A stretch of 37,805 nt of DNA from assembly GCA_020853235.1 (NCBI GenBank), contig JADYZG010000001.1, positions 1-37,805 on the forward strand, in the 5' to 3' direction. The notes beneath the pieces were generated by a model. That model was not told the origin of the DNA and did not search any database. It worked only from the letters and a program-made list of their open reading frames with translations. The translations under genes and the position numbers were made by a program. Below, piece by piece: positions 1,495-4,103 of this stretch (positions are counted from its first letter, which is position 1; every line of letters starts with the position of its first letter). The stretch comes from a bacterium. Its GTDB lineage: Bacteria > Patescibacteriota > Dojkabacteria > GCA-002793355.

Positions 1495-2478
1495 ATGGAA
1501 TTATCACAGCAAAAAAGACGAAGAGATGCCGTTTCGGTCGTGACTAATACTTCTAATTTATTATTGAGCAGTGATTCCCCGTGGGCAAAAGTTTTAAAAC
1601 AAGTGGAACAGGTACGCTCCAATTTCCAAGTTTTACTGGCACCAGGTGAAAAGCAGTTTAAGGATTTACCAAAGCGTGTGCGTTTGATGGTGGTTTCTTT
1701 CGGAACTCCCTTGATTTTCTCGATCCTTAAGTTATATGTATTCCCAACATCTCATTCGATTTCACTATGGAGTATACTGGCATTTGGACTTGGCCTACTT
1801 ACTTACTGGGGGACATATTGGGGTCTTAAGGGGCAGGTGCGTCGTGAATCGTATGTGTCGGTTCTCTTGCTGCCATCACTCTTTGTTATAGTGAACACAT
1901 TATTCCTGAGTACAGTCTTTGTTGGCGAAATTAACAGGCTCTATCTTTGGGGTCTTTTTGGCCTTTCGCTAATTGTATATATGATTTTTCTTTATACTCT
2001 GTCACTAGCAGTTAATATATTGAATGTGTCGTTGTTTTATACAATTCCTTTGAGTAGGTTAGGGGAGACAGTTGCTTATATTGCCGGTGTCATTGTACTA
2101 TTCCTTCTCTCGTACACGATTTTTCAGAGAACACTTCCCTACGTCGTTGCAATGGATACAACGGCATTAGCGTTACTTTTTGGTGGAGCATTCATCATCA
2201 CGACAGCTTTAGTCACCGCTTTATGGAATTATTTTGTTCCTTCGTCACGCGGTTTCTGGTTGTTTGTAACACTATCATCGGTGTTTCTAACAATTTCTTT
2301 GTCTGTTGCATCGTTGTTTTTGCCTTCTGCGTGGGTTGCGGGAATTGCTCACGGAATGGTCAGTTATGTTTTCGTAGGATACGTTATACATAAAGAACAA
2401 AATACATTAAATAACACGGTATATTGGGAACTTTTTGCGATTTCTGTGCTATCATTTTTGTTAGTAATTCTGGTGTAG
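1495..2478 (+). CDS. Polytopic membrane protein of unknown function
   Basis: I do not recognise this family. The 327-residue protein has a soluble N-terminus of about 65 residues (basic, MELSQQKRRRDAV) followed by eight or nine hydrophobic segments from about residue 66 to the C-terminus. The last hydrophobic segment runs to the stop codon. No catalytic motif is obvious. It lies 20 nt after ruvB, but a -10-like TATAGT sits 6 nt before its ATG, so it probably has its own leaderless transcript. Nothing in the sequence ties it to recombination, and adjacency to ruvAB may be incidental. Confidence 0.85.
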   Translation: MELSQQKRRRDAVSVVTNTSNLLLSSDSPWAKVLKQVEQVRSNFQVLLAPGEKQFKDLPKRVRLMVVSFGTPLIFSILKLYVFPTSHSISLWSILAFGLGLLTYWGTYWGLKGQVRRESYVSVLLLPSLFVIVNTLFLSTVFVGEINRLYLWGLFGLSLIVYMIFLYTLSLAVNILNVSLFYTIPLSRLGETVAYIAGVIVLFLLSYTIFQRTLPYVVAMDTTALALLFGGAFIITTALVTALWNYFVPSSRGFWLFVTLSSVFLTISLSVASLFLPSAWVAGIAHGMVSYVFVGYVIHKEQNTLNNTVYWELFAISVLSFLLVILV

Positions 2479-2488
2479 AGTAGAGGGT

Positions 2489-2497
2489 TGTGGATAA
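2489..2497 (-). other. Solitary DnaA-box match
   Basis: The minus strand reads TTATCCACA, the strict bacterial DnaA-box consensus. Only one copy is seen and no dnaA, dnaN or AT-rich 13-mer array accompanies it, so it is not evidence of an origin. By chance such a 9-mer would occur about 0.3 times in a window this size. Confidence 0.25.
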
Positions 2498-2501
2498 CTG
2501 G

Positions 2502-2527
2502 GTCCTATAGTACGTGTGTCCTATAGT
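2502..2527. repeat. Tandem direct repeat GTCCTATAGT x2, 16-bp period
   Basis: GTCCTATAGT occurs at 2502-2511 and 2518-2527, separated by 6 nt. Each copy contains TATAGT, a plausible -10 hexamer of the kind used elsewhere in the window, and the self-complementary CTATAG. It could be a duplicated promoter or operator half-site. Confidence 0.4.
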
Positions 2528-2538
2528 TTTTACTAAAA

Positions 2539-2655
2539 ATGCCTGGAGTAGTCTCTTTTTGGATAGTGATAATGGACGTAAGTATTGTATTAGCTAAAAT
2601 TATTAGAAAATTTGATTTTCATTTTAGAAAAGTAGTGCATTTCTACTCTCAATAA
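2539..2655 (+). CDS. Possible 38-residue small membrane protein
   Basis: This short open frame starts at ATG 2539 and ends at TAA 2655. It encodes a hydrophobic N-terminal half (about residues 4-22, VVSFWIVIMDVSIVLAKII) followed by a basic, aromatic tail. A TATAGT hexamer lies 11 nt upstream, the same spacing seen at the secreted-protein gene at 22290. There is no homology or codon evidence, and the ORF could be chance in an AT-rich region. Confidence 0.2.
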   Translation: MPGVVSFWIVIMDVSIVLAKIIRKFDFHFRKVVHFYSQ

Positions 2656-2724
2656 TAGTTACCTGGTAAATTTGGTGTAATCGGCCGTTTTGGGTTGTCA
2701 AGTCCCAATATTGTAAACGTTTAG

Positions 2725-2756
2725 AGACTGAGTATAATCTCCCTTATACTCAGTCT
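2725..2756. other. dif: Candidate dif site (Xer recombination site)
   Basis: Two perfect 13-bp inverted arms (AGACTGAGTATAA at 2725-2737 and TTATACTCAGTCT at 2744-2756) flank a 6-bp centre TCTCCC. Known dif sites have 11-bp recombinase-binding arms around a 6-bp (less often 5-8) central region, with inner arm ends close to ATAA...TTAT; this site has exactly that. It lies 240 bp upstream of a Xer-type recombinase gene, as sites do in single-recombinase systems such as XerS/dif-SL. No T-run follows on either strand, and the nearest upstream gene ends 246 bp away, so a terminator is unlikely. An operator remains possible. Confidence 0.6.
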
Positions 2757-2985
2757 AAATCTGTCAACGCGAGAGGAGTGCCCTATTTGTGTGACTAGAA
2801 CATGTTTTGGATTAAAGTTTTATTTTTCTTTTAATTCCCTATTTATTCTGTAATAAAAACGAATTAATTCCGAATTTCCGTTGAACTTCACATTTTTACC
2901 TCTTAACCCTCTTGGCCTATACCACTCGAAATCTGGAATTTTGGTCTGTAACTCCCCTTTCTTCCCATTTCTGGGGAATTTGCGC

Positions 2986-2991
2986 TATACT
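2986..2991 (+). promoter_or_regulatory. -10 box for xer recombinase
   Basis: TATACT with a 5-nt spacer (gtgct) directly before ATG 2997, predicting a leaderless transcript. A short inverted pair TTCCC/GGGAA (about 2962-2978) lies just upstream, around the -35 position. Confidence 0.65.
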
Positions 2992-2996
2992 GTGCT

Positions 2997-4103
2997 ATGA
3001 GAAGAATCTCAATTCAGCAACTTATTGATGATAAAAAGCACGTTAAACTGGAGCGTCAGAATGAATTTTTGTTACATCTCTACAGTAATAATTACAGTGA
3101 CGAAACAATTTATAACTATAACCGTGATCTGACATTCTTTGCTGAGTACCTAGTTGAGTCAAAAACTGAGTTTGGAAAAGTAAACAAGCGCACAGTTACT
3201 TTTTTTAAGGGTTGGCTTAAGGAAAGAAAGCATATTTTATCAAAAGAAGATAAAGAAGGTGCAGAAACCGTCGGTAATGCGGCGGTTAAAGGCAAAAATG
3301 CCTCAAAATCGAACGACAGTAAGAAAAAGGTATCAGAACCCCCAAAGAAAATACCAAAAGCTAGCTTTGCCAAGAACAACAACCCTGAAGTCTTGGATGC
3401 GCTTTCGGTAAACAGGATTTTAGTCTCACTCAGAAACTATCTAAGGTTTTTGGTTGAATACGATTACGAATCGCCTTTGGCACCAGATGCAGTCAAGCTT
3501 GTTCGTATTGCAAAAAAGAAACCTCAGGTAAATACACTCGAAGAAATTATTGCCCTAGTTGAAGCACCAACGACATATGAATCAATAGAGATAGTCGGCT
3601 TGAGGAATCGTGCAGCACTAGAGCTTTTGCTTGCAACAGGCATGCGTATATCAGAAGTAGTGAGTATTAATCGTGATCAGGTAAATTCAGATGGTAAGCT
3701 CTTTATAACTGGGAAAGGGAAGAAACAGCGGTTCGTGTACCTAACTCCCCGTGCGGTGGGGCATATCCAGAATTACCTGGCAAAGAGGGTAGACGCCTAC
3801 CCTGCCCTGTTTTTGCCCACAAGTGGGAGCAGATTGAAAGGTTCGGATCCTCGAATTTCGACGAATTATTTACAAATGAAAATCGCTTTTTATCGCCGAA
3901 TGCTTGAAATTGTCGTTCCGATGAGCGCACATTCAATTCGACATGCCTATGCAACGTATCTTGCTGAAAATGGTGCTAATCCCGCTGCTATTCAGGTACT
4001 TTTAGGTCACGAAAGCCTGCAGACTACAACAAGGTACGTCCATACTAGCGACAAATTCGCCGAAGACACGCATAAGGAGTTCCATCCTGCTAGTGACTTG
4101 TAA
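2997..4103 (+). CDS. xer: Xer-family tyrosine recombinase (XerC/D-like)
   Basis: This is a site-specific recombinase that would resolve chromosome dimers at dif. It has an N-terminal SAM-like core-binding domain (about 15-80 plus 132-160) and a C-terminal catalytic domain (about 178-365). The full catalytic set is visible: R217 in ATGMRISE, K240 in TGKGKKQR, H312 and R315 in SAHSIRHAYATY, H338 in LLGHES, and the nucleophile Y347 in TTTRYVHT. At 368 residues it is longer than the usual ~300 because of a Lys/Ser-rich, low-complexity insert at about 82-131 within the core-binding domain. Only one Xer gene is seen, and a dif-like site lies 240 bp upstream. It is less likely an integrase, since there is no mobile-element context. 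Confidence 0.93.
   Translation: MRRISIQQLIDDKKHVKLERQNEFLLHLYSNNYSDETIYNYNRDLTFFAEYLVESKTEFGKVNKRTVTFFKGWLKERKHILSKEDKEGAETVGNAAVKGKNASKSNDSKKKVSEPPKKIPKASFAKNNNPEVLDALSVNRILVSLRNYLRFLVEYDYESPLAPDAVKLVRIAKKKPQVNTLEEIIALVEAPTTYESIEIVGLRNRAALELLLATGMRISEVVSINRDQVNSDGKLFITGKGKKQRFVYLTPRAVGHIQNYLAKRVDAYPALFLPTSGSRLKGSDPRISTNYLQMKIAFYRRMLEIVVPMSAHSIRHAYATYLAENGANPAAIQVLLGHESLQTTTRYVHTSDKFAEDTHKEFHPASDL

Follow-up and report, generated by a model that had tools for sequence, protein, structure and literature searches.

A highly probable dif site beside the gene for a catalytically complete Xer recombinase in Candidatus Dojkabacteria, with KOPS-like words converging on it and a GC skew that switches elsewhere

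The XerCD/dif arrangement combines a dif site with FtsK and a polar guide word, KOPS (GGGNAGGG) in Escherichia coli or SRS (GAGAAGGG) in Bacillus subtilis. The locus described here shares with these systems the 11-6-11 layout, inner ends of the TAA/TTA type, one site per chromosome, an FtsK with a gamma domain, polar GRGNAG-type words directed toward the site and a XerD-like recombinase core and tail. It differs from them in having one complete Xer encoded beside the site, a degenerate second Xer-like protein and a GC skew that switches elsewhere. XerS/difSL of streptococci and XerH/difH of Helicobacter and Campylobacter use a single recombinase of about 360 aa that is encoded next to the site, as is the case here (PMC5357621). 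However, in difSL the centre measures 11 bp and one arm is unequal (PMC5357621), whereas the present site has a 6-bp centre and equal arms. Archaeal XerA/dif, as described for Pyrococcus abyssi, also resembles our locus in pairing one recombinase with a near-symmetric 11-6-11 site (PMC2958812), and the P. abyssi dif oligonucleotide ATTGGATATAATCGGCCTTATATCTAAA shares 18 of 28 positions with the present site, TATAATC..CCTTATA among them. The P. abyssi site has conserved flanks, like the one here, and is situated 120-142 degrees from the origin at the summit of the polar-word curve rather than at the antipode (PMC2958812); the site in our genomes is likewise off the antipode. In contrast, archaea do not have FtsK, which is present here, and Thermococcales dif is found away from xerA (PMC2958812), whereas here the site is mostly beside xer. 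In the literature that we searched, neither dif nor FtsK-guiding words had been described for Patescibacteria.

The window analysed here is a stretch of 37,805 bp that constitutes the entire contig C1 of a 33-contig, 840-kb assembly (own genome, G000); its features are listed in the table. Thirteen-bp arms that are complementary at 13 of 13 positions flank a 6-bp centre in a 518-bp intergenic gap, and this is the only inverted repeat of at least 12 bp in the gap. By simple arithmetic, the chance expectation of a perfect 13-6-13 repeat in the window is about 37,805 x 4^-13, or 0.0006. The xer start codon follows 240 bp after the right arm, and there is no T-run at the repeat. The layout is that of dif: two inverted arms of about 11 bp, a centre of about 6 bp and inner ends of the TAA/TTA type. 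Upstream on the plus strand are ORFs of putative ruvA, ruvB and membrane-protein type, as named from sequence, followed by xer and then by a minus-strand block. An earlier note on this DNA had pointed out the perfect arms and 6-bp centre, the missing T-run, the intact Xer gene 240 bp downstream and the change in gene orientation around the site, all of which we recovered. With up to 3 mismatches allowed, the 22-bp core occurred once in the 840-kb genome, while the reversed control gave no match.

Table. Features of the window and of other contigs and genomes discussed in the text (window positions unless a contig or genome is named)
Feature	Position	Strand	Sequence, basis or remark
GAGCAG, left of the site	1566-1571	+	KOPS-like word, toward the site
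Intergenic gap	2479-2996		518 bp
DnaA-box-like sequence	2489-2497	-	TTATCCACA, perfect
Direct repeat	2499-2527		TGGGTCCTATAGT / TGTGTCCTATAGT
Palindrome	2714-2723		TAAACGTTTA
Candidate dif, whole repeat	2725-2756	+	AGACTGAGTATAA-TCTCCC-TTATACTCAGTCT; repeat, conservation, copy number
Candidate dif, left arm	2725-2737	+	AGACTGAGTATAA
Candidate dif, centre	2738-2743	+	TCTCCC
Candidate dif, right arm	2744-2756	+	TTATACTCAGTCT
One-sided conserved 3' flank	2757-2790	+	AAATCTGTCAAnGCGnGAGnAGTGCCCTATTTG in genus; alignment of three genus members
xer, 368-aa tyrosine recombinase	2997-4103 (ATG at 2997)	+	R-K-H-R-H-Y complete; XerD-like C-terminal tail (HKEFHPA / HQQHHPR)
GAGCAG, sole word directed away from the site	3827	+	
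Minus-strand gene block	from 4125	-	
20 GAGCAG words (CTGCTC on +), right of the site	5366-36097	-	toward the site
Their starts, 1-10	5366, 6249, 8798, 9895, 10756, 13546, 15031, 15538, 15874, 16472	-	
Their starts, 11-20	18190, 21987, 25277, 26166, 28315, 33658, 34065, 34144, 35673, 36092	-	
Second Xer-type protein, 310 aa	G000:C8:50167-51096 (L220)		
FtsK motor (PF01580)	G000:C8:82603-83157		match in two pieces
Site 0.2-0.7 kb upstream of xer, examples	G017, G018, G024, G026, G027, G038, G039, G042, G045, G052, G054-G057	same as xer	model matches
Site-xer distance, same contig, first exceptions	G014 3.2 kb, G003 4.9 kb, G048 6 kb, G006 14 kb, G009 42 kb		
Site-xer distance, G033	22 kb	opposite to xer	
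Site-xer distance, family f10	G019 (C1) about 184-185 kb, G032 (C1) about 205 kb		best model match

The catalytic hexad was found at the XerD positions in the window Xer and in all 44 orthologs. Of the solved sequences, E. coli XerD and a XerD-FtsK-gamma fusion were the closest; XerH was a weak PDB match (5e-8). The window Xer scored below the NCBIfam equivalog cut-offs of XerC (168.5 versus 335 bits), XerD (167.9 versus 329.6 bits), XerA (144 versus 220 bits) and XerS (82 versus 267 bits), setting it apart from the archaeal and streptococcal enzymes as well. Because every equivalog cut-off was missed, we place this protein outside the named Xer subfamilies. The earlier note had spoken of a single Xer, which is correct to the extent that one Xer is catalytically complete; however, a second Xer-type protein is present in 72 of 83 genomes of the class. 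In all 31 aligned copies of this protein the catalytic Lys is missing and Asn replaces the first His; it is a conserved and, judged by its sequence, probably cleavage-deficient paralog. The FtsK motor was identified in 28 of 29 relatives, the own genome among them, and the FtsK gamma domain (PF09397) was found in the one ortholog scanned, from G012. The motor match was split in the own genome, as in families f1 and f8, such that profile positions 138-167 (about 30) were skipped with only about 10-20 bp between the pieces; this may be a clade-specific deletion or strong divergence.

The closest named relatives are Candidatus Dojkabacteria, namely G002 (CP129470.1) and G003 (CP129477.1), which are both closed, and G001 (BOKM01000001.1). 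A search with the strict core GTATAANNNNCCTTATAC identified 30 of 86 class genomes with one copy each, and the reversed control gave none. One of these matches, that of G055 (L062, with a CTGTCC centre), is probably due to chance, since a covariance model places a different site beside xer in that genome. This model was trained on 37 sites and found the site in 69 of 83 Dojkabacteria class genomes, leaving about 14 with no match. In families outside the training set (f9 and f11) and in most of f5, the best match shared its strand with xer and was 0.2-0.7 kb upstream of the gene. Of the 41 genomes with both on one contig, 33 had the site less than 2 kb upstream of xer, in the orientation of the gene. 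Going by the best model match, linkage between xer and the site is broken in family f10. Outside the class, eight more genomes, scattered over other Patescibacteria, matched at E<=0.001, seven of them with a xer homologue within 1.5 kb. The same site was also present about 100 bp upstream of xer in Kerfeldbacteria and Sungiibacteriota loci, with a slightly altered right arm (TTACAC), and a Nomurabacteria locus carried a related site in the opposite orientation.

The centre of the site, TCTCCC in the window and TCACCC/TATCCC as the consensus in relatives, is asymmetric and sets a direction, which agrees with the strand of xer in nearly all relatives. In addition, the arms covary: we counted 25 double changes compared with 10.0 in shuffles, and none of 500 shuffles gave as high a value. 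Conservation of an asymmetric centre between covarying arms is what a directional recombination site should show. Thus the earlier proposals that the site would be single-copy and conserved next to xer in relatives hold well, with one core copy in the own genome, one site per genome in relatives and a position that is mostly just upstream of xer.

We also examined oriented words in 20-kb stretches that covered G002 and G003 for the most part, half of G014 and about a third of G001, with some N stretches, using a circular change-point search that was not given the position of the site. The convergence point of GAGCAG was at 255.7-255.9 kb in G002 (site at 256.8 kb), at 757.4-761.9 kb in G003 (site at 761.7 kb, inside this interval; xer at 766.6 kb) and at 771.5 kb in G001 (site at 770.5 kb), which corresponds to a distance of about 0.2-4 kb across the three genomes. 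Among 3,722 oriented 6-mers, GAGCAG ranked first in closeness to the site in each of these genomes, and in each its signal was stronger than in 300 strand-label permutations. In G014 (family f8) as a whole, GAGCAG polarity was not significant against 300 such permutations. Purine-rich words such as GAAGAG and AGAAGT likewise turn near the site, which partly follows the gene strand. In the case of GAGCAG, coding-strand preference falls sharply in genes directed away from the site, and intergenic copies point toward rather than away from it by 80 to 32. Gene strand alone does not account for GAGCAG polarity. In regions where the GC-skew terminus and the site disagree, AGAGNAG pointed toward the site 263 times and away 75 times, first of its class. 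The counts of AGAGCAGG toward and away from the site were 5 and 0 in the own genome, 13 and 5 in G001, 26 and 3 in G002, and 42 and 2 in G003. Within the window, 21 of 22 GAGCAG words are directed at the site, a polarity that is based mainly on the right side as the contig reaches only 2.7 kb to the left.

Because its form, G-A-G-N-A-G-G, resembles KOPS and SRS, the GAGCAG-type word is the obvious candidate for an FtsK guide, and we infer from its distribution that this KOPS/SRS-like word, best in the form AGAGCAGG, would serve that function. The unchanged E. coli and B. subtilis words were rejected as guides since they had too few sites and weak polarity, AGAGNAG(G) being stronger.

Next to the site, GC skew behaved differently from what the earlier note had predicted. 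It had expected the skew to switch there, and in none of the four relatives sampled did this occur. The positive arc ended at 23 kb in G002, 994 kb in G003, 69 kb in G001 and 162 kb in G014, whereas the site is at 257, 762, 770 and 259 kb, respectively, an offset of roughly 100-350 kb in genomes of 0.7-1.1 Mb. A rough gene-strand correction moved the end of the skew to 938 kb in G001 and to 90 kb in G014, with G002 and G003 unchanged. The distance from the skew origin to the site is about 20-30% of the chromosome, with the GC terminus roughly opposite that origin. Gene orientation turned at the site in two genomes, at 254 kb in G002 and at 771 kb in G001; in G003 its convergence, at 840 kb, was less exact, while in G014 it ended at 162 kb. 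In published surveys the GC switch and dif coincide, even in asymmetric chromosomes (PMC6199493; PMC3025954), and the switch averages 13 kb from dif over 2,027 chromosomes (PMC6199493). The off-centre dif of Pseudomonas aeruginosa PAO1 resembles the Dojkabacteria case in its unequal chromosome arms and in polar words that converge on dif rather than opposite the origin; however, GC skew also turns at dif in PAO1 (PMC6199493), whereas in Dojkabacteria it turns roughly opposite the origin. As polar words turn at the site and displaced dif sites are known (PMC6199493, PMC2958812), the skew offset does not refute a dif assignment. We read these data, obtained from sampled stretches of four genomes that include N stretches, as indicating two termini: one of segregation at dif, marked by the KOPS-like words and by gene direction in two or three genomes, and one of GC skew, probably of replication, elsewhere.

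In an alignment of the genus, the candidate dif was the best-conserved block within an otherwise drifting intergenic region. The palindrome TAAACGTTTA, which had been suggested as an accessory site, has a related sequence, TAAGCGCTT, in G001 and no counterpart in G002; as it is not conserved throughout the genus, we dropped this suggestion. The conserved flank 3' of the site is a better candidate for an accessory site and possibly an accessory or regulatory sequence; its one-sidedness recalls the 13-bp flank on one side of Sulfolobales dif (PMC2958812). Further upstream, the core GTGGATAA of the DnaA-box-like sequence is kept in G001 and G002, and CCTATAGT-type repeats, like those of the direct repeat, are conserved across the genus.

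Several other explanations of the repeat were considered. Its position upstream of xer in most genomes, together with covarying arms that the binding site of a dimeric protein would likewise give, could mean that it is a palindromic operator that places the xer promoter under the control of Xer or another regulator. This is very improbable, given that the asymmetric centre is conserved, that xer and the site are separated in some genomes by 4.9 kb (G003), 14 kb (G006), 42 kb (G009) or about 185-205 kb (f10) and in G033 by 22 kb, there on opposite strands, and that the polar-word switch of G003 contains the site and not xer. Nor would an operator explain word polarity along the whole chromosome, although the site may double as dif and as a xer operator. 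We regard it as scarcely credible that the repeat serves the upstream operon as an intrinsic transcription terminator or as an RNA hairpin of another kind: despite a perfect 13-bp stem downstream of a plus-strand operon, the T-run is missing, the inner stem is AT-rich, the centre sequence is conserved, and there is exactly one such site per genome, on which polar words converge. Integrated elements that borrow Xer, such as an IMEX, plasmid or phage, carry dif-like sites of their own (PMC5357621), and the repeat could be the attachment or resolution site of one. However, it is single-copy and vertically conserved in most of the class, its neighbours are housekeeping-type ORFs, and two exact-pattern scans of viral contigs gave no match, making this origin most improbable.

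The main rival concerns how the site works rather than its identity. Assuming that the repeat is dif, one of its arms might be used by the second Xer-like protein, in a pair like XerC and XerD. This protein is present in 72 of 83 genomes, and in G001 and G002 its gene is no more than about 25 kb away from the skew origin, in line with the finding that xerD is usually near the origin and xerC usually near dif (PMC3025954). The missing Lys and the replacement of the first His by Asn in 31 of 31 aligned copies argue against it, as do arms that are near-identical and, in the window, perfectly so; we consider such a pair unlikely. From the sequences, one active Xer is likely to act on both arms.

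We conclude that the repeat is very probably dif, the chromosome-dimer-resolution site of Candidatus Dojkabacteria, and assign this reading a probability of roughly 0.94. The evidence is its single copy, its retention next to xer, the convergence of KOPS-like words on it and, in two of the three close relatives, the orientation of genes, all of which bear out the proposal of the earlier note. Binding and cleavage by Xer and resolution of dimers in the cell are what we infer from these features. In the proposed mechanism, the single complete Xer, encoded 240 bp downstream, would probably bind both near-identical arms as a dimer. Two dif copies in direct orientation on a dimeric chromosome would then synapse, and Xer would cut where the arms meet the asymmetric 6-bp centre, with strand exchange through a Holliday junction yielding two monomers. 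FtsK would probably trigger the reaction at the septum, its gamma domain reading the AGAGCAGG-like word directed at dif from both sides.

The dif/Xer/FtsK system itself is already known. As far as the literature that we searched shows, what is new is the site of this clade, its KOPS-like word and the separation of dif from the GC-skew terminus. We put forward only tentatively, as possible but on balance doubtful, the more general idea that Dojkabacteria have a segregation terminus, made up of dif, KOPS-like words and, in at least two genomes, gene orientation, that is stably offset from the GC-skew replication terminus by roughly a quarter of the chromosome, together with one active Xer and a conserved cleavage-deficient paralog replacing XerD. 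The offset between dif and skew bears on the question of a common cause for GC skew, gene orientation and segregation signals, and the 32-bp site provides a defined substrate for an uncultured clade as well as an anchor for orienting its genomes.
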